From Thermodesulfovibrio sp. (GTDB taxonomy: Bacteria > Nitrospirota > Thermodesulfovibrionia > Thermodesulfovibrionales > Thermodesulfovibrionaceae): 41,320 nucleotides of DNA. The DNA is taken from positions 1 to 41,320 of the forward strand of contig JANXBR010000005.1 of assembly GCA_025060625.1 (NCBI GenBank), read 5' to 3'. A model generated the notes under the pieces. It searched no databases, was not told where the DNA came from, and was given only the letters and a program-made list of their open reading frames with translations. A program made the position numbers and the translations under genes. Positions 10,142 to 24,667 of this stretch are shown here, one piece after another. Every line of letters starts with the position of its first letter. The stretch's first letter is position 1.

Positions 10142-11443
10142 TCATGTTTTTTGAAAATAGAGTTTTTGAAAATTTCTTGATTTTATTATGTATGAATAAA
10201 AAGCAGCTGCCTTTGTGGGAGTTCTTTTATATGTCTTGAAATCAACTCTGTAAAGACCAAATCTTGCATCAAGTCCATGAAGCCATTCATAGTTGTCAAT
10301 CAATGACCAGTAGAAATATCCTCTAACATTAATACCTTCAGATATAGCATTTTCAATTACATCAACATGGGCTTTAATAAATTTCATTTTTTTACTGTCA
10401 TCCTTTGTTGCTATACCATTTTCTGTTATTATTAGAGGAACATTAAGTTGAGAGGCATATCTTAGAACTTTTTTTAAACCCTTTGGATATATCTCCCATC
10501 CCATATCTGTTAAACCATGTCCATCAATATCGCGGTGTCTAAATTCAATAAAAAGCTTTCTTAGAGGATTAAATCTCATATGGACTCTTGTGTAGTAGTT
10601 TATTCCAAAAAAATCAAGTTTTCCCTTGATCGGTACATCTATTTCAAAGGCTTTTCTAAATGGTATGGGAAGTCTAATTCTGCCACTTATAAAACCTTCA
10701 ATAACAGAGTGGTTATAGAATTTTTTAGCAATTTTTGCTAAAACTTTATCAAAGGGATTCCATTTTATCCAAGGTGCAAATACTGCCATGTTGTGAGCTA
10801 TACTTACCATACTATTTTTATTCTTCAGATGAATAAGATCGTACATATGTCCATGACAGATAAATATATTTTTTAATGCTTTTATGGCTAAATTTAGATC
10901 TCTATATCCTGGTGGAATGCATCCCTCAATATATCCTCCAAGTATTAATAAATAGGGTTCATTAAAGGTTATCCAGTAGTCAACGCCCTTAATATTTTCT
11001 ATGAGTCTCTCTACATACTCAAGAAATTTATCAATGGATCTTTTTCTATGCCAGGGATATTTTGTGATAAACCACACAGGGTGGGTGAAATGATGTATGG
11101 TGACCATAGGAGTTATGTTATTTTCATTTAAAAGGTCAATAATTTTTTGATAATGTTTAACTACTTCAGTATTCCAATAATTCTCTGAAGGTTGAATTCT
11201 ACTCCATTCAATGGAGAATCTATAGGCATTTACACCGAGATTTTTAATAAGCCTAATGTCTTCTTTATATAGTTCATAGTGATTGGTTATTTTTGGATTA
11301 AGATTAAAGATGCTGTCCCAGGTAGACCAATCTGCATAAGGCGAGCCCTCCAGTTGAAAAGCAGAGGTTGCTACTCCCCATAGAAAATCATGATTTTTTA
11401 TATCTGCGCGGAATTGAGATATAGACTGTTGTACCTTTTCCAT
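10142..11443 (-). CDS. Glycoside hydrolase family 1 (beta-glucosidase/beta-galactosidase-like)
   Basis: FLWGVATSAFQLEGS, acid/base YWITFNEP, nucleophile LIITENG, YFYWSLIDNYEWLHGLDARFGLYRVDF. Start taken at ATG 11443 (MEKVQQ...); track extends to TTG 11473. Either start overlaps the upstream gene. Confidence 0.95.
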   Translation of the reverse strand: MEKVQQSISQFRADIKNHDFLWGVATSAFQLEGSPYADWSTWDSIFNLNPKITNHYELYKEDIRLIKNLGVNAYRFSIEWSRIQPSENYWNTEVVKHYQKIIDLLNENNITPMVTIHHFTHPVWFITKYPWHRKRSIDKFLEYVERLIENIKGVDYWITFNEPYLLILGGYIEGCIPPGYRDLNLAIKALKNIFICHGHMYDLIHLKNKNSMVSIAHNMAVFAPWIKWNPFDKVLAKIAKKFYNHSVIEGFISGRIRLPIPFRKAFEIDVPIKGKLDFFGINYYTRVHMRFNPLRKLFIEFRHRDIDGHGLTDMGWEIYPKGLKKVLRYASQLNVPLIITENGIATKDDSKKMKFIKAHVDVIENAISEGINVRGYFYWSLIDNYEWLHGLDARFGLYRVDFKTYKRTPTKAAAFYSYIIKSRNFQKLYFQKT

Positions 11444-12089
11444 ATTCACTTTTAATTGAAATGCTTCCTCCAAGCATTTTCAACAATTGATTTGTAATGA
11501 AAAGTCCAAGACCTGAACTTTCCCATATATTTTTATAAATAGATATATCCAAATAGTAGGGATGATTTAAGATCTTACTTAATTCTTCTTCTGCAATTCC
11601 TCTTCCTGTATCCTGAATTCTTATTAAAACATTGTTATTTATCTCTTGCAAGCCAAAAAAAATATAACCTTCCTTTGTGAATTTTACAGAGTTTGACGAT
11701 ATATTTAAGAGAATCTGCTTTATTTTAACAGAGTCTGAAAGAACAATATACTTATCAAAGGCAAATTCCGTTCTTATCTCTATTGGTTTATTCTCTATGA
11801 GAATTTTTGTTAGCTCTACTATTTCATAGATACTTTCTAAAATATCAAACTCCTCAATAATCAATTCTTCCTTGCCTGATTGTATTTTGCCAAATTCAAT
11901 GGTATTTGAAATATAATTTCTCATGAATATTGCCTGAGATATGATATGAGAGAGGTATTTTTTAATCATTTCTTCATTTTGCTTTCCAAGATTAAGTTCA
12001 ATAAGCTTGGCAAGATTAAGTATGTTATTGAGGGGAGATTTAAGTTCATGAGAAAACATTGATAAATTAAGAATATAGTCCTTATTCAT
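11388..12089 (-). CDS. Histidine kinase (HisKA + HATPase_c) with no N-terminal sensor domain
   Basis: H-box MFSHELKSPLNNILN, N-box KQILLNISSNSVKFT, G1 IQDTGRGI, G2 GLGLFITNQLLKMLGGSISIKSEYGKGTTVYISIP. Confidence 0.92.
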   Translation of the reverse strand: MNKDYILNLSMFSHELKSPLNNILNLAKLIELNLGKQNEEMIKKYLSHIISQAIFMRNYISNTIEFGKIQSGKEELIIEEFDILESIYEIVELTKILIENKPIEIRTEFAFDKYIVLSDSVKIKQILLNISSNSVKFTKEGYIFFGLQEINNNVLIRIQDTGRGIAEEELSKILNHPYYLDISIYKNIWESSGLGLFITNQLLKMLGGSISIKSEYGKGTTVYISIPRRYKKS

Positions 12090-13116
12090 CTTTTCTGTCT
12101 ATTCTTCTGTCTCTAAATATGATAGACTTGTTAGTCACTCTTGAAAGCTTTTTTGCTTCTGATTTAACTTCCGATGCAATTGATGCAAGATGAGCAAAGG
12201 AGGTTATATTTCGTGTTTCTGTACTTACTATTGCACAGGTAAGAGATAGAAGTTTGAAAACTTCTTGTTCTTCCTTTCTATTCTTTGAAATATAATATCC
12301 CTTTATGAAGTCTTCTCCATGAAAGAATGGTAGGAGTTCTTCAAAGGCGCTTACTATCTTTTGACATATGGTCATAGAAACTCCAGGTTTTGAAAGCAAA
12401 ATAAAATCATCTCCTCCGATATGTCCTATAAAGACATCATTGGATGTTTTTGCTATATCCTTGAGTATATTACCAAGACTTGTGATTACTTTATCACCCT
12501 TCTCAAATCCATAGCAGTCATTAAAAGGTTTGAAATGATTTATATCTATGTAGCATACATCAAATTCACACTTACATCTAATTTTTCTATCTATCTCTCT
12601 TTGTATAGCCCAATTTCCAGGTAAACCAGTAAGGGGATTAGAATCTCTGGCAATTATTAAGGATCTCTGAGTTATTGCTTCAAGTAAGACACTTATTGGA
12701 ACGACACCATGATACTCATTGTATTTACTTACTATTATATCATCATATATGTTTTTCATTTCTCTTTTCTTGATTATCATTGATGCATCTTCAAGAGTTA
12801 CATCATAATCAATAATAAATGTTGGCTCCTCCATAACTTCAAAAATACACTTTTTAGCATTTAAATGAATACCATAACCAAATCTTCCAAGAACTGTGCG
12901 CTCTAAAAATCTATTTCTTTGTATTTGTCCTATTACAACATTGTTATCTACTACTGGAATAAGACCTATTTTTTCATCTTTCATAAATCTAAGAAAAGCA
13001 TCCATAATCTTGGAATTTTTATTTAATGGTTCAACTTTGATAGCTATATCTCCTATTGATAAGTCAAGAATAGAAGGTTCTAACTTACATTTAGATTCTA
13101 AATCATCTGCTAACAT
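12082..13116 (-). CDS. CBS-pair + GGDEF-type (GGDDF) domain protein
   Basis: N-terminal CBS-like segments (KIMDAFLRFMKDEKIGLIPVVDNNVVIGQIQ), then NPLTGLPGNWAIQREI, DINHFKPFNDCYGFEKGDKVI, GHIGGDDFILL. Confidence 0.88.
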   Translation of the reverse strand: MLADDLESKCKLEPSILDLSIGDIAIKVEPLNKNSKIMDAFLRFMKDEKIGLIPVVDNNVVIGQIQRNRFLERTVLGRFGYGIHLNAKKCIFEVMEEPTFIIDYDVTLEDASMIIKKREMKNIYDDIIVSKYNEYHGVVPISVLLEAITQRSLIIARDSNPLTGLPGNWAIQREIDRKIRCKCEFDVCYIDINHFKPFNDCYGFEKGDKVITSLGNILKDIAKTSNDVFIGHIGGDDFILLSKPGVSMTICQKIVSAFEELLPFFHGEDFIKGYYISKNRKEEQEVFKLLSLTCAIVSTETRNITSFAHLASIASEVKSEAKKLSRVTNKSIIFRDRRIDRKDE

Positions 13117-13858
13117 TTTGAATTTTTTTTATTTTCTCTTCAGGCTTTCCAAGATAAAAGCCTTGTAAAAGATCTACTCCAATCTTGACAACCTCACTTA
13201 ATTGATATGACGTCTCAATTCCTTCAGCAACAACCATTATATTTAATTTGTGACAGGCTGTGACTACAAACTCTATGAAAGATTTTGAAAAATTATTTTC
13301 TTCAAAGGTATGTATAAAGTGTTTATCTATTTTTACAATATCAGGCTCAAGAAGGCTTAAAAGTTTGGGACCTCCAAAGCCTGCTCCAAAGTCATCTATA
13401 GCTATTTTGTAACCTCTACTTTTGTAGTAAGATACTGATTTCATAAAAATCTTATAGTTTTCAATTGCAGACTGCTCAGTTATTTCAAGGACTATTCTTT
13501 CTTTTGGAAAATTGAACTCTTCTGCAAATTTATCAGTTATACCTATTTCGTGTTGAGGATAAAAAAGGGTTTCTGGACAAATATTAATGAAAAGATAACT
13601 TTCAAGATTTTGTCTTGAGGCTTCTTTGATTGAGTTTCTTCTTGCAATCATATCAAGTATGAAGATTGAGCCATTTTTTTTAGCCTCTAGAAAGAGATTC
13701 TTTATATTTAAGTCTTTTGATTTATGCCTTGTTAAAGATTCATAGCCAAAAATTTTACCTTCTTTTGATGAAAATATTGGCTGAAAATAAACTGTAAGTT
13801 CTGAATACAGTGACTCTATGGACTTGTGATTATCAACACTATGCTCTGTTTGTAACAC
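13103..13858 (-). CDS. EAL-domain c-di-GMP phosphodiesterase-like protein (GTG start)
   Basis: YFQPIFSSKEGKIFGYESLTR (ESL variant of EAL), FINICPETL, VLEITEQ, IAIDDFGAGF, PDIVKIDKHFI, VVAEGIET, LLQGFYLGKP. Confidence 0.93.
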   Translation of the reverse strand: MLQTEHSVDNHKSIESLYSELTVYFQPIFSSKEGKIFGYESLTRHKSKDLNIKNLFLEAKKNGSIFILDMIARRNSIKEASRQNLESYLFINICPETLFYPQHEIGITDKFAEEFNFPKERIVLEITEQSAIENYKIFMKSVSYYKSRGYKIAIDDFGAGFGGPKLLSLLEPDIVKIDKHFIHTFEENNFSKSFIEFVVTACHKLNIMVVAEGIETSYQLSEVVKIGVDLLQGFYLGKPEEKIKKIQNVSR

Positions 13859-13891
13859 TATCTATCCTCCAATGAATTTATCCTAAGTAAG

Positions 13892-13946
13892 ATTTTAACA
13901 TAACTTTGTTACATAAAAATTAAGGAATTGTTAAAATCTTGTTAAA
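13892..13946 (-). promoter_or_regulatory. Pho-box-like array and -10 for the EAL/GGDEF/HK/GH1 operon
   Basis: Minus strand: TTTAACA-agat-TTTAACA-attc-CTTAATT-ttta-TGTAACA-aagttatgt-TAAAAT; four units at 11-bp period, 9 nt to the -10-like hexamer. Confidence 0.65.
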
Positions 13947-13959
13947 CTTTAACTAAAAA

Positions 13960-14014
13960 TTTAACAGAAATTTAAAATTATTTTAACTTTTCTGTAACCT
14001 CTTAGGTCTATTAT
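13960..14014 (+). promoter_or_regulatory. Pho-box-like array and -10 for the PHP/GT/alkaline phosphatase operon
   Basis: Plus strand: TTTAACA-gaaa-TTTAAAA-ttat-TTTAACT-tttc-TGTAACC-tcttaggtc-TATTAT; same geometry as the pstS array. Confidence 0.75.
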
Positions 14015-14027
14015 TTAAATAAAAAAT

Positions 14028-14717
14028 ATGCTTTTATGTGACTTTCATATCCATACCAAATATTCAGACGGTTCAATGGAACTTAGAAAGGTCGTTGATC
14101 TATTTGGGCAAGCAGGTTTTGATGTTATAGCAATAACAGATCATGTAGTAAATGGCGATAGTATGATAGGAAAGTTTGCTTACAAGTTTAGATTTACAGT
14201 TACTGAAAAAAATTTCAATGAATATATAGAAAACATAAGATATGAGGCTAAAAGAGCATTAGAAAAATATGGAATGATTGTGATTCCAGGTGTAGAGATA
14301 AGTAAAAACTATCTTTCCTCTGAAAAATCAGCCCATATCCTAATAATTGATATAAAAGACTTTATTCCTGCCTGTGCATCATATGAAACAATATTTCTTG
14401 AGGCAAAAAAACAGAATGCCTTGGTAGTTGCCTGTCATCCTCATCATATAAAAGGAGAGATTCGCAATACTTTATATTTATGGAAAAATAGAAACAAATA
14501 TGGAAAATACATAGATGCATGGGAAATTGCTAACAGAGACGATGTATTCAATGTGGTTAGTCTGAAAAAATATCCCTATATAGCTAATAGTGATTTTCAC
14601 AAAGCAAGACATCTTTATTCATGGAAAACATTACTTAATTGTGATAAAAACGTAGTTTCAATAAAAAACTGTATCAAAAATAATAAAGGCGTAGCAATAA
14701 CACTTTTCAGGGGGTAG
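14028..14717 (+). CDS. PHP-domain metal-dependent phosphoesterase
   Basis: DFHIHTKYSDGSMELRKVVDLFGQAGFDVIAITDH, IPGVEIS, VACHPHH, ANSDFHKA. Confidence 0.92.
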   Translation: MLLCDFHIHTKYSDGSMELRKVVDLFGQAGFDVIAITDHVVNGDSMIGKFAYKFRFTVTEKNFNEYIENIRYEAKRALEKYGMIVIPGVEISKNYLSSEKSAHILIIDIKDFIPACASYETIFLEAKKQNALVVACHPHHIKGEIRNTLYLWKNRNKYGKYIDAWEIANRDDVFNVVSLKKYPYIANSDFHKARHLYSWKTLLNCDKNVVSIKNCIKNNKGVAITLFRG

Positions 14718-15892
14718 TGATGATTTTATGGATAGTTTTATGTCTTGTTTTCTTAAGCTTGACTGTTTATTTTGTACAAATTTTAGCATTAAGGAGAAAG
14801 CTCAGTGAAAGTTATGGTCTTACCAATTTCCCTCCTATATCAATAATAAAACCTTTAAAAGGTCTTGATGACAATCTCTTTGATAATCTTGAAAGCTTCT
14901 GTAAACAGGATTATCCCGAATATGAAGTTATATTCTCATTGCAGGATCGCAATGATCCTGCTTACAGAGTTGCTGAAAAAGTAAGAAATAAATATCCTGA
15001 ACTTGTAAAGATAGTTATTGACAGTTCGTATAATGCCCTGAATCCAAAGGTAAAGAATATGATTTCTGCCTACAAAGAGTCAAAATATGATTATTTTCTT
15101 ATAAGTGATAGCAATGTCTATGTTGAACCTGACTATTTAAAGAAAACGGTTTCCTCCATGACATCGGACACTGGACTTGTCACCAATCTCATTGTAGGAC
15201 ATGGAGGTAAAACCTTGGGTGCTAAACTTGAAAATCTTCAGTTAAACTCCTTTGTAATTACCAGTGTATGCTTTCTTGATAAATTTCTTAAGATGCCATG
15301 TAGTATTGGTAAGTCAATGCTCATGAGAAAGAGTGATTTTGAAGAAATAGGTGGTTTCAATGCAGTTAAAGATGTTTTAGCAGAGGATTATCTTATAGGA
15401 AAACTAATGCACCAAAAAGGCAAGAGAGTTGTTCTCTGTAGCTATACAATTAGAAATATAAATGAGTACTGGTCAATGAATAAATTCCTTAATAGACATA
15501 CAAGATGGGCAAAGATAAGATGGAAAATAGCTGGTTTGAAGTATTTTAGTGAGCCTCTTAGTAATCCTGTTTTTGTATCCTCTTTAATTCCAGTTTTGGA
15601 AGGCTTCTCAAAGATTTCCATGACAGCATTTATATTAGTAGTGACAATAAAAATTGCCTTTGATTTATACATAAGTAGATTAATTAAGTCTCCCATTGGA
15701 CTATCGGGATTGCTTATTCCTCTAAAGGATTTAATTACAGCCATTATATGGTTTGTTCCTTTATTGAGCTGTAAAATCAATTGGAGAGATAATTTATATA
15801 TAATAGGAAAAAATACAGTAATCAAACCATATGAAAGTAATTCTTCCCTTAAGGTTGTCTTTAATAGACTTAAAACAGTAATAACAGGTTAA
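14717..15892 (+). CDS. Glycosyltransferase, ceramide-glucosyltransferase/HpnI-like (GT21-like), membrane-anchored
   Basis: N-terminal TM, PPISIIKPLKGLDDNLFDNLESFCKQDYPEYEVIFSLQD, ISDSNVYVEPDYL, LAEDYLIGKLM, (R/Q)xxRW = RHTRW, C-terminal TM segments. Confidence 0.85.
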   Translation: MMILWIVLCLVFLSLTVYFVQILALRRKLSESYGLTNFPPISIIKPLKGLDDNLFDNLESFCKQDYPEYEVIFSLQDRNDPAYRVAEKVRNKYPELVKIVIDSSYNALNPKVKNMISAYKESKYDYFLISDSNVYVEPDYLKKTVSSMTSDTGLVTNLIVGHGGKTLGAKLENLQLNSFVITSVCFLDKFLKMPCSIGKSMLMRKSDFEEIGGFNAVKDVLAEDYLIGKLMHQKGKRVVLCSYTIRNINEYWSMNKFLNRHTRWAKIRWKIAGLKYFSEPLSNPVFVSSLIPVLEGFSKISMTAFILVVTIKIAFDLYISRLIKSPIGLSGLLIPLKDLITAIIWFVPLLSCKINWRDNLYIIGKNTVIKPYESNSSLKVVFNRLKTVITG

Positions 15893-15903: not shown

Positions 15904-17457
15904 ATGGAAAGAAGACATTTTTTAAAAGTCTCTCTTGCAAGTTTTATTACTCTAATTGCTTCATCTGAAGAGATTTTTGCTAAGGTTATGGATTCAAAAC
16001 AAGCTAAAGGAGCGAAGGGAGTAATATTCATAGTAGGTGACGGCTGGCCACTTGGAGTAATAAAAGCAATGAATGAATTTATGGAGATGAAATTTCAAGA
16101 AAAAAGTAATCTATCAATGCTTTTTAAGGATTCTAAAACAAAACTTTTACTTCAAAATACTTCCTCTCTTTCTTCAGTTGTTACTGACTCTGCTCCAGCT
16201 TCTGTTTCCTGGGCAACTGGTTCAAAGACATTTAACAGAAGTCTTTCTGCTTTACCTGATGGAAGACACTTAAAAACCATATTTGAACTTGCAAAAGAAA
16301 AAGGAATGTCTTGTGGATTTATAACCACCACAAGAGTCACTCATGCCACACCTGCAGCATGGTATAGTCATAACTTAAACAGAGATGACGAGGAAAATAT
16401 TGCCATTGACCTTTTAAATTCTAACTTAGATGTAGCAATGGGAGGAGGTGATAGATTTTTTAATGCTGAGAAGCGTAAAGACAAAAAAGACCTCTATGGA
16501 ATGTTTGCATCAAAAGGTTACAGAGTAGTTAAGTCTAAGGAGGATTTATTAAGTAGTATCTCTGATCAAAGCCCTATTCTTGGAGTTTTCAGTTCTTCGC
16601 ATATGGGTTACTTTGTTGACAGATTAAATGATCAAAAATTAAGCCAAAAACAACCTTCTTTACCAGAGATGACTGCAGTAGCTCTTAATAAATTAGCTAA
16701 GAATAAAAAGGGTTTTGTTCTTCAAATTGAGGCTGGAAGGATTGACCATGCCTGTCATGCCAATGATGCCTATGCTGCAATGATGGATTGCTATGAGCTT
16801 GATAAAACCATCGGAGTAGTGATGGATTTTATTAACAAAAATCCTGATGTAATGCTAATAGTTACATCAGATCATGGAAACTCTGGTTATGGAATAAACG
16901 GCACTGGACCTGAATATAACGATGCTACAGAGGCGTTGTTAAATTATAAAAATAGGGCTTCCTTTGAGTACATGATAGGAAAGATGAAGAATCAGGATTT
17001 AAAAACTGTAAAAGAAATCTTTGAAAACTACACTCAACATGGAATTTCATTAGAGGAAGCAGAAGAAATTTATAAGGGATTAAATGAAAAGAAAAAAATA
17101 GTCATTAACGATATTTGGTATGAGCCAGAAGCTACAATGGGCAGAATTTTGGCAAAGAGTATTTATAACTATGAAAATGAAAAACTTGTAAAACCAGCAA
17201 AAGAAAGAAGGGGAAATGTGGGTTTTACATCAACAAATCATACTGCCGAAGACCAGATTGTCTTAGTATACGGAAAAAAATTCTCAGGGTCAGAATTAAA
17301 AAACCACATTGACAATACTGAATTATTCAATCTCATGTGTGCTTATTTAGGAATAAAATACATAAATCCAAAAATGAATAGACAGGATGCTAAGTTATAC
17401 AGTAAAGCTATATCCATGGAAGAATGGGAAAGGCATCTTAAACTCCATATATCCTGA
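15904..17457 (+). CDS. Alkaline phosphatase (PhoA-type) with Tat signal
   Basis: Tat-like MERRHFLKVSLASFITLIAS; catalytic VTDSAPASVSWATGSKT; IEAGRIDHACHANDAYAAM; IVTSDHGN; TSTNHTAED. Confidence 0.93.
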   Translation: MERRHFLKVSLASFITLIASSEEIFAKVMDSKQAKGAKGVIFIVGDGWPLGVIKAMNEFMEMKFQEKSNLSMLFKDSKTKLLLQNTSSLSSVVTDSAPASVSWATGSKTFNRSLSALPDGRHLKTIFELAKEKGMSCGFITTTRVTHATPAAWYSHNLNRDDEENIAIDLLNSNLDVAMGGGDRFFNAEKRKDKKDLYGMFASKGYRVVKSKEDLLSSISDQSPILGVFSSSHMGYFVDRLNDQKLSQKQPSLPEMTAVALNKLAKNKKGFVLQIEAGRIDHACHANDAYAAMMDCYELDKTIGVVMDFINKNPDVMLIVTSDHGNSGYGINGTGPEYNDATEALLNYKNRASFEYMIGKMKNQDLKTVKEIFENYTQHGISLEEAEEIYKGLNEKKKIVINDIWYEPEATMGRILAKSIYNYENEKLVKPAKERRGNVGFTSTNHTAEDQIVLVYGKKFSGSELKNHIDNTELFNLMCAYLGIKYINPKMNRQDAKLYSKAISMEEWERHLKLHIS

Positions 17458-17475: not shown

Positions 17476-18192
17476 ATGAGATTAGGGATATTGGGTGACA
17501 TTCATGGAAATTTAGAGGCATTGAAGACTGCCTACCAAACTGCGATTGATGAAGGTGTGAACAAGATATATCACCTTGGAGACCTTGGCGGATATGCACC
17601 TTTTGTTAATGAGGTTGTAGATTTCCTTATTGAACACAATATTGAGGGAGTTCAGGGAAATTATGATGAAGCTATTGCATATGACAGAGTTCATTGCGGA
17701 TGCAAGTATGAAAATGATTTTCAGGCTAAAATGGCTCAATTATCCTTTGAATGGACAAAAAGGGCAGTAAAGGAAAAGTCAAAAGACTATATGAAAAATT
17801 TACCCTTCAGTATTGATCTTAATGTTAATAGTAGGAAGATTAAAATCTTTCATGCAACGCCGGTTAAAAACAACATTTACTGGTATGAGGATAGGAATGA
17901 AAAATTTTTTCTTCTAATGGCTCAAAAGGCAAAGGCTGATGTAATGATTTATGGACATACTCATCTTCCCTATTTTAAAAAGATTGGAAGTTTTTATTTC
18001 ATTAATGCAGGAAGTGTAGGAAAACCAAAGGACGGAGACTCAAGAACCTGTATCTGTATAATTGATATTAATTATCATGATATAAAGGTTAAATTTATAA
18101 GAAAAAACTATGACATTAAAAAAGTTGTTGATGCAATAATTGAAAGTGGATTACCTGATTACTTTGCAGAAAAATTAGTTTTAGCTAAGTAG
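17476..18192 (+). CDS. Calcineurin-like metallophosphoesterase (YfcE/MJ0936-like)
   Basis: LGILGDIHGNLEALK, IYHLGDLGGYAP, VQGNYDEAI, MIYGHTHLPYF, FINAGSVGKPKDGD. Confidence 0.92.
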   Translation: MRLGILGDIHGNLEALKTAYQTAIDEGVNKIYHLGDLGGYAPFVNEVVDFLIEHNIEGVQGNYDEAIAYDRVHCGCKYENDFQAKMAQLSFEWTKRAVKEKSKDYMKNLPFSIDLNVNSRKIKIFHATPVKNNIYWYEDRNEKFFLLMAQKAKADVMIYGHTHLPYFKKIGSFYFINAGSVGKPKDGDSRTCICIIDINYHDIKVKFIRKNYDIKKVVDAIIESGLPDYFAEKLVLAK

Positions 18193-18201
18193 GAGGAGTG
18201 T

Positions 18202-18579
18202 ATGAATAGGGGTAAAATATTATTGATTGATGACAATGAAGAGGATTTAATATTTACTAAGGAACTTCTTGAAAAAGTAGGATATACTGTAATTCAGAAT
18301 GTGGGATGGCTTGGAACAACAAAGAATATTAAATATCTTAATCCTGATATAGTGCTTCTTGATGTTAATATGCCTGCCTTACCTGGGGACAAGCTTTACG
18401 ATTTAGTGCTAAATCTTGTGAAAGAGAAGAAAATTCCTGTCTTATTTTATTCTGCTATGGATGAATCCTATCTTAAAAAGCTTAAAATAATGAAAGGTAT
18501 TACAGACTATATTGTCAAGGGTGATATATTCCAGCTTTACAGAAAGTTATCACTTTACATGAATAGAAAATTGAACTAA
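18202..18579 (+). CDS. Single-domain response regulator receiver protein
   Basis: KILLIDDNEEDLIFTKELLEK, IVLLDVNMPALPGDKL, VLFYSAMDESYL, DYIVKGD; no output domain. Confidence 0.9.
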   Translation: MNRGKILLIDDNEEDLIFTKELLEKVGYTVIQNVGWLGTTKNIKYLNPDIVLLDVNMPALPGDKLYDLVLNLVKEKKIPVLFYSAMDESYLKKLKIMKGITDYIVKGDIFQLYRKLSLYMNRKLN

Positions 18580-20427: not shown

Positions 20428-20482
20428 TGTAACAGAAATTTAACATTTCCGTAAAATTACTGTAACATTAACCCTCTATACT
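20428..20482 (+). promoter_or_regulatory. Pho-box array and -10 of the pst operon
   Basis: TGTAACA-gaaa-TTTAACA-tttc-CGTAAAA-ttac-TGTAACA-ttaaccctc-TATACT; four units at 11-bp period upstream of pstS. Confidence 0.85.
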
Positions 20483-20521: not shown

Positions 20522-21541
20522 ATGAGAAGTTTAAGACGTTTATTCTTAAGTAGCTTTATCTTGTCTGTCTTAGTCTTGTTCATCTCTTCTGTCACAGTCA
20601 ATGCTCAACCTATTATTAAGATTGATGGATCTTCAACTGTTTTTCCAATTACAGAGGGTGTGGCTGAGGATTTCCAGAAAGCAAAGAAAGGTGCAGTAAA
20701 GATAACAGTTGGTATTTCAGGGACTGGTGGTGGATTTAAGAGATTTTGTAGAGGTGAGACAGACATTTCCAATGCATCAAGACCTATCATGAAAAAAGAA
20801 ATTGAAGCATGTAAAGAGGCAGGAATTAGATATATAGAACTCCCAATTGCCTATGACGCTCTTTCTGTTTTTGTTAATGTAAAAAACAAATGGATAAAGG
20901 ATGACTGTATTACTATTGAGCAACTTAAAAAAATGTGGGAGCCTGATGCACAGGGTAAAATAACAAAATGGAATCAGGTTGACCCAAGTTGGCCAGACAA
21001 AAACTTAAGACTTGCAGGTCCTGGCGCAGATTCAGGGACATTTGATTACTTTACCGAGGCTGTCGTAGGTAAAGCAAAGGCAAGCAGGGGTGATTATGTG
21101 GCAAGTGAAGATGACAATGTAATTATGAACGCAGTTATTAAGGAGGAAGGTGGACTCGGTTATGTAGGGTTAGCCTATGTTCTTGAGAATAAAGGAAAAG
21201 TAAAACCTCTTTCAGTTAAAAATCCTAAGACTGGAAAATGTGTTTTACCAAGTGACAAAACAGTTATGGATGGATCCTATCAGCCACTTTCAAGACCTCT
21301 CTTTATCTATATAAACGAAAAGGCTGCAAAGGAAAGACCAGAGGTTAAAGAGTTTGTAGATTATTATCTCAAAAATGCAGCTAAGATATCAAAACAAGTA
21401 GGATATATACCTCTTCCAGCAAAAGCTTATGATCTGGCAGCTGAGAGATTCAAAAAGATGCATGTTGGAACAGTTTTTGGTGGTGAACCACAGGTTGGAT
21501 TAACAGTTGAAGAGCTACTAAAGAGAGAGGCGAAATACTAA
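20522..21541 (+). CDS. pstS: Phosphate ABC transporter substrate-binding protein
   Basis: Signal peptide; IIKIDGSSTVFPITEGVAEDFQK, GISGTGGGFKRFCRGETDISNASRPI, LAGPGADSGTFDYFTEAV; followed by pstCAB. Confidence 0.96.
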   Translation: MRSLRRLFLSSFILSVLVLFISSVTVNAQPIIKIDGSSTVFPITEGVAEDFQKAKKGAVKITVGISGTGGGFKRFCRGETDISNASRPIMKKEIEACKEAGIRYIELPIAYDALSVFVNVKNKWIKDDCITIEQLKKMWEPDAQGKITKWNQVDPSWPDKNLRLAGPGADSGTFDYFTEAVVGKAKASRGDYVASEDDNVIMNAVIKEEGGLGYVGLAYVLENKGKVKPLSVKNPKTGKCVLPSDKTVMDGSYQPLSRPLFIYINEKAAKERPEVKEFVDYYLKNAAKISKQVGYIPLPAKAYDLAAERFKKMHVGTVFGGEPQVGLTVEELLKREAKY

Positions 21542-24250: not shown

Positions 24251-24667
24251 ATGATTCACTTCTTTTGTCCTTCTTGCTGGAGAGGAATATTAGAAAATAT
24301 AGTTATCTGTCCCTATTGTAACTATGATTTAAAAGATTTTAATGCTTTATCTTATGATGATAAGTTAATACTATCACTAAAACATCCTGTTAAGGAAATA
24401 AGAAGACTGGTAATTTTTGTAATTGGATTAAAAAAATTAAAAAAAGCACTACCAGAACTGGAGAAAATGATTGATCACGAAGAAGATCCAATCATATTAA
24501 TTGAGATTGTAAAAGCCTTGCGACAAATAAATGATAAAGACTCAAAGGCAATTCTGGAAAAGATGCGATCTCACAGATTTTCAATAATATCTCAATACAT
24601 TGAACAGATAGAAAATCCTCAAATTAAAGAATTTTATGGCAAGACAATAAATTTTAATAACAAATAA
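24251..24667 (+). CDS. Small zinc-ribbon + HEAT-repeat-like protein encoded between pstB and phoU
   Basis: FFCPSCWRGILENIVICPYC (two CxxC) followed by HEAT-like helices (HPVKEIRRLVIFVIGLKKLKKALPELEKMIDHEEDPIILIEIVKALRQI); start 2 nt after pstB stop. Confidence 0.75.
   Translation: MIHFFCPSCWRGILENIVICPYCNYDLKDFNALSYDDKLILSLKHPVKEIRRLVIFVIGLKKLKKALPELEKMIDHEEDPIILIEIVKALRQINDKDSKAILEKMRSHRFSIISQYIEQIENPQIKEFYGKTINFNNK

Follow-up and report, generated by a model that had tools for sequence, protein, structure and literature searches.

Which signal governs two operons that diverge from a 169-bp intergenic region (13859-14027) in the genome of a Thermodesulfovibrio species? The window that we analysed, a stretch of 41,320 nt, is contig C140 of a 1.47-Mb, 66.6%-complete MAG. 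The region in question separates the gene for a predicted EAL-domain c-di-GMP phosphodiesterase, whose start lies at 13858 on the minus strand, from that for a PHP-family phosphoesterase, which starts at 14028 on the plus strand. We regard it as highly probable (roughly 90%) that two divergent PhoB-activated promoters reside here and that they would co-induce phosphate- and lipid-related enzymes together with the c-di-GMP phosphodiesterase.

On the plus strand, an array with the sequence TTTAACA-GAAA-TTTAAAA-TTAT-TTTAACT-TTTC-TGTAACC occupies positions 13960-13999. It consists of four 7-mers (13960-13966, 13971-13977, 13982-13988 and 13993-13999) with an 11-bp period and is followed, after 9 nt (14000-14008), by the -10 hexamer TATTAT (14009-14014), a position that reads TATYAT in all orthologues of the genus. 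The minus strand carries TTTAACA-AGAT-TTTAACA-ATTC-CTTAATT-TTTA-TGTAACA (13946-13907), likewise four 7-mers with an 11-bp period, and 9 nt past this array the -10 TAAAAT (13897-13892). A previous sequence-only reading of this DNA had described two divergent four-unit arrays of identical geometry and had equated their period, unit count and 9-nt gap with those of an array in front of pstS (20428-20482). The sequences agree base for base with this description, and the common layout of all three arrays (four 7-mers, 11-bp period, 9 nt, -10) is directly visible: the pstS array (20428-20467, plus strand; TGTAACA-GAAA-TTTAACA-TTTC-CGTAAAA-TTAC-TGTAACA) is followed after 9 nt by TATACT (20477-20482), upstream of pstS (20522-21541) and then pstC-pstA-pstB-HEAT-phoU. 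The HEAT-repeat protein encoded between pstB and phoU (24251-24667) is present in several members of the genus and absent in others. Neither -10 of the divergent pair belongs to a consensus sigma-70 -35/-10 pair, as had been anticipated for Pho boxes upstream of a -10 without a good -35, and ordinary sigma-70 promoters at these positions were rejected on this ground. Four direct repeats of 7 bp with an 11-bp period, set at a fixed short distance from a -10 that has no consensus -35, are features by which a PhoB-dependent promoter is recognised.

The intergenic region is very AT-rich, as are the units themselves, and chance repeats in such DNA would be the most trivial explanation. A loose 40-nt pattern allowing up to two mismatches matched the entire 1.47-Mb genome at the plus, minus and pstS arrays only, and the same pattern reversed as a control gave no match in this genome. 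A 55-nt sequence-only model was then built from 28 orthologous promoters of the plus operon; the plus array belongs to this training set, and the pstS array and all minus arrays were left out of it. In the window's own genome, this model returned E-values of 2.9e-10 for the plus array, 3.8e-8 for pstS and 2.7e-6 for the minus array, with the next match at 0.03. A model derived from one promoter consequently recovers the other array and that of pstS with a clean gap to the background, the outcome that the proposed genome scan called for. A second matrix, trained on orthologues with the window itself left out, scored 44.0, 37.4 and 35.6 at the three arrays (plus, 44.0; minus, 35.6), and the best non-overlapping site in the window reached 5.5. 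The maximum in 100 simulated 41-kb windows was 15.6, and 20.8 when the composition of the very AT-rich intergenic region was used, so that composition-matched random DNA stays far below the arrays. The arrays are far beyond chance; pattern scan, model search, simulations and an order-wide conservation effectively refute the chance explanation, whose probability we regard as negligible.

Rightward of the intergenic region, the genes encode, all on the plus strand, the PHP-family phosphoesterase (14028-14717), a GT21-family, HpnI-like glycosyltransferase (14717-15892), an alkaline phosphatase (15904-17457; PF00245), a YfcE-type metallophosphoesterase (17476-18192) and a single-domain CheY-like response regulator (18202-18579). 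Here and for the opposite operon, the enzymes are assigned from family profiles and sequence motifs. The PHP phosphoesterase is 69-92% identical across the families of the order, with invariant His/Asp metal ligands, whereas its GT21 neighbour is just about 50-55% identical outside the genus. An identity of the latter protein as HpnI was rejected (TIGR03472, 238.3 bits against a curated cut-off of 310), and the assignment stays at the level of the GT21 family.

The sequence-only reading had made its case contingent on conservation in orthologous intergenic regions, and this is found genus-wide for both arrays and order-wide for the plus operon. The plus array lies upstream of the PHP-GT21 operon in all 14 Thermodesulfovibrio loci that have this operon and in nearly all order-level loci examined; the operon itself is missing in two genomes of the genus (G001 and G010), which we count against our reading. 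In a further test, a matrix derived exclusively from the genus was applied to 63 additional non-genus loci; the median score was 17.5 for the upstream regions and -17.5 for the control means. The upstream score exceeded 5 in 52 of the 63 and, in 44, surpassed every one of some 55 control segments taken from the same locus. Some control maxima were high (24-33); arrays of neighbouring genes, of the kind mapped elsewhere in the order, may account for them. The information content in 49 of these loci amounts to 1.25 bits per column in the 7-mers, 0.72 in the linkers, 0.18 in the 9-nt spacer and 1.04 in the -10, as one would predict for a binding array with a -10 behind it. Sequences resembling the array extend to three loci (L205, L206 and L208) whose records bear the titles Syntrophaceae and uncultured proteobacterium.

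A separate observation concerns the start of the plus transcript. The -10 sits 13 nt 5' of the PHP start codon in the window, where no obvious Shine-Dalgarno sequence is seen, and by manual count it is only about 6-13 nt from this start in about 38 of the 63 non-genus loci. We predict a PHP transcript with no 5' leader or hardly any.

The leftward genes, on the minus strand, begin with that of the predicted EAL phosphodiesterase (13103-13858; GTG start; PF00563, E 2e-45), in which the motifs ESL, INICP, EITE, DDFGAG, VKID, AEGIE and QGF, read by eye, would provide the catalytic residues. It overlaps by 14 bp with a gene for a CBS-GGDEF protein (12082-13116), followed by a histidine kinase core with HisKA and HATPase_c and no input domain (11388-12089) and by a GH1-family glycosidase with NEP and TENG motifs (10142-11473), the listed TTG start of which is probably too far upstream. 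Where an active diguanylate cyclase has GG(D/E)EF, the window protein and all orthologues of this group have GGDDF. Given this and the EAL motifs, a net breakdown of c-di-GMP is to be expected, and the GGDDF part would be a partner with a regulatory role. The earlier proposal that c-di-GMP turnover and lipid/phosphoester genes share one regulon is supported as regards the joint regulon, but turnover has to be narrowed, probably to degradation only.

The minus array is present in 12 of the 14 genus loci (degraded in G006), and the gap to the plus array is 12-13 nt in 11 of these 12, with a varying sequence. In the window the two arrays are merely 13 bp apart, and the minus array resembles the 55-nt model less than the plus array does (28.1 versus 40.7 bits). 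One could hence imagine that the plus array alone works as a promoter, that the minus array is an upstream extension for PhoB binding and that the EAL operon escapes phosphate control. The distribution of the minus array speaks against this. It faces the EAL operon, towards which it has a separate 9-nt gap and -10; it is absent in the two genomes whose locus lacks the EAL gene (G009 and G014), despite a plus operon with a retained plus array; and in G003, from which the EAL, GGDEF and histidine kinase genes have gone, it still stands directly 5' of the GH1 gene. Moreover, fused EAL genes elsewhere have arrays of their own, far from the PHP promoter. We judge a plus-only promoter to be very improbable and retain the reading of two active, divergent promoters.

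Outside the genus, EAL and CBS-GGDEF form one protein of 618-629 aa with GH1 downstream, and both lie on the strand of PHP-GT21. The two overlapping genes seen within Thermodesulfovibrio represent a conserved split of this gene; an assembly frameshift was rejected as its cause since the split recurs across the genus. In three genomes of one family (G026, G037 and G046), an array that belongs to the fused gene is found about 400 nt upstream of it and has TATGCT as its -10; in G046 the stretch between this array and the gene contains a small Cys-containing ORF. A weaker array (score 14.5) in G028 likewise precedes a small ORF, and that of G055 is weaker still (12.6). The minus array hence ranges over one genus plus one clear outside family, with G028 and G055 contributing weaker versions only, and this narrow range also counts against our reading. 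Because the fused gene outside the genus has an array of its own, the EAL operon was probably under Pho-type control before the rearrangement brought the promoters into divergent orientation. Homologues of the histidine kinase (34-40% identity) and of the receiver (43-46%) are adjacent outside the genus, which suggests that the kinase at 11388-12089 and the CheY-like protein at 18202-18579 are a separated pair, a probable cognate two-component system split across both divergent operons in Thermodesulfovibrio. In six genomes of the genus (G002, G005, G006, G012, G013 and G015), a second pstC-pstA-pstB set lies downstream of the minus operon and in its orientation.

The genes that carry the array elsewhere identify it as a Pho site independently of motif resemblance. 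When the best 150 first-look candidates per genome were scored in relatives, 11 Thermodesulfovibrio genomes gave 24 matches at E<1e-3 among these candidates, all before a few gene classes: pstS genes, which are of two types, account for 10, PHP operons for 9 and a small gene of the InsA-type Zn-ribbon class for 3, and one match each lies before the gene of a CheY-like regulator and before phnD, the latter phosphonate-binding (PF12974, E 6e-72). At the level of the order, arrays also precede pstC, YfcE, HK-RR and a PhoA-family gene. The same site is in this manner found before core phosphate genes in the window's own genome and in related ones.

The Zn-ribbon gene merits a remark of its own. 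It encodes a stand-alone InsA-type protein (PF03811) about 92-116 aa long and is preceded by a Pho array with a score of 25-47; this combination occurs in 12 of the 16 loci checked in genus and order (L244-L254 and L256); examples are G005:C31:146050-146325, G004:C19:31432-31704 and G046:C47:10926-11192. The gene was not found in the window's own incomplete genome. Its product is possibly a Pho-controlled DNA-binding protein.

The best PhoB candidate in the genome is encoded at C139:1984-2661, followed by the gene of a histidine kinase that we call PhoR. PhoB makes base contacts through R201, T194, V197 and R219 and has the activation-loop residues W184, G185, V190 and D192 (PMC3973317). The candidate is 43% identical to PhoB of E. 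coli, possesses the identical helix RTVDVHIRRLR and keeps all four contact residues as well as W184, G185 and V190; D192 is replaced by S. It scores 277.4 bits, below the TIGR02154 cut-off of 296.2, and we name it PhoB on account of residue conservation and target genes, not of this score. No array precedes phoB on contig C139. The sub-threshold score, the D192 substitution and the missing array before phoB all count against our reading.

Tandem 7+4 sites are common to several regulators of the OmpR family. A different OmpR/PhoB-family protein with a similar tandem site might consequently act here, in which case the operons would answer another signal, and the genome does encode a second full-length OmpR-type candidate (C143:5193-5834). 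This protein attains just 112.6 bits against the PhoB model, and the array has the geometry of the E. coli pstS promoter; in relatives it stands before pstS, pstC and phnD, among further phosphate genes, and in the window before pstS. Control by another regulator is in our view very improbable, and we keep PhoB as the presumed activator.

The suggestion of the sequence-only reading that both operons consist of phosphate-starvation genes hence receives support from conservation, from the associations with phosphate genes, from the PhoB-PhoR pair and from the E. coli geometry; induction under phosphate limitation is predicted for both. From the arrays, their conservation, the gene associations and the PhoB residues, all read from sequence, we would expect PhoB binding, induction at low phosphate, co-transcription of the genes, the assigned enzyme activities and an effect on glycolipids and c-di-GMP to connect as follows. 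Upon phosphate starvation, PhoB~P generated by the PhoR-PhoB pair of contig C139 would bind head to tail along the four 11-bp units, would stand in for the missing -35 contact and would recruit sigma-70 polymerase to each -10. Rightward induction would raise the PHP phosphoesterase, the GT21 glycosyltransferase, the alkaline phosphatase, the YfcE phosphoesterase and the CheY-like regulator; leftward induction would raise the EAL phosphodiesterase, its CBS-GGDDF partner, the histidine kinase and the GH1 glycosidase. Starved cells could in this way combine the release of phosphate from esters with changes to glycolipids or glycans and a fall in c-di-GMP. The glycolipid part of this scheme is an idea suggested by the GT21, GH1 and phosphoesterase content. 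As a tentative extension, which may well prove wrong, we envisage a phosphate-starvation module of the Thermodesulfovibrionales in which a PhoB-controlled EAL-CBS-GGDDF c-di-GMP phosphodiesterase, GH1, GT21, the highly conserved PHP hydrolase and a two-component pair link glycolipid remodelling to a drop in c-di-GMP, and which in Thermodesulfovibrio would have been reorganised into two back-to-back Pho promoters with kinase and receiver separated.

These data extend a well-defined Pho promoter architecture to the Nitrospirota with strong comparative support, and they provide a site model that can be used to annotate the Pho regulon across the group. They suggest that the phosphate response includes the strongly conserved, uncharacterised pair of PHP hydrolase and GT21 protein and the small Zn-ribbon protein, and they predict a fall in c-di-GMP under phosphate stress in these bacteria, as occurs in Pseudomonas fluorescens. 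In open-access full texts we found no prior description of a Pho regulon in Thermodesulfovibrio or the Nitrospirota, though such a search argues only weakly that none exists. Promoters of this type are classical, and PhoB control of a c-di-GMP phosphodiesterase is already known from P. fluorescens; the novelty lies in the member and its phylum, in the gene set and in the back-to-back arrangement.

The pstS promoter of E. coli MG1655, which we read directly, is TGTCATA-N4-TGTCATA-N4-TTACATA-N4-TGTCACC-N9-TATTTT and has the same 55-nt geometry of four 7-mers, 11-bp period, 9 nt and -10. Its units are TGTCATA, whereas those of Thermodesulfovibrio are TTTAACA/TGTAACA, with TCAT-containing units in more distant relatives, and Thermodesulfovibrio has two such promoters back to back. 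In the sulfate reducer Desulfovibrio vulgaris, pst genes, phoU and HD/EAL genes are among the targets of PhoB (DVU1083), and its box is a repeat of (c/t)GT(n)AC with a 4-bp spacer (PMC3333781), which resembles the TGTAAC-N4 of Thermodesulfovibrio. This bacterium belongs to a different phylum, and the PhoB targets that we read of there include neither a PHP-GT21-PhoA operon nor the divergent pair. A close parallel in role and promoter is RapA of P. fluorescens, a c-di-GMP phosphodiesterase encoded behind a Pho box, expressed at low phosphate and lowering c-di-GMP (PMC3032545). Thermodesulfovibrio differs from this precedent in its phylum, in the CBS-GGDDF protein, the kinase and the GH1 glycosidase that join the EAL protein, and in a promoter region held in common with a PHP-GT21-PhoA operon.
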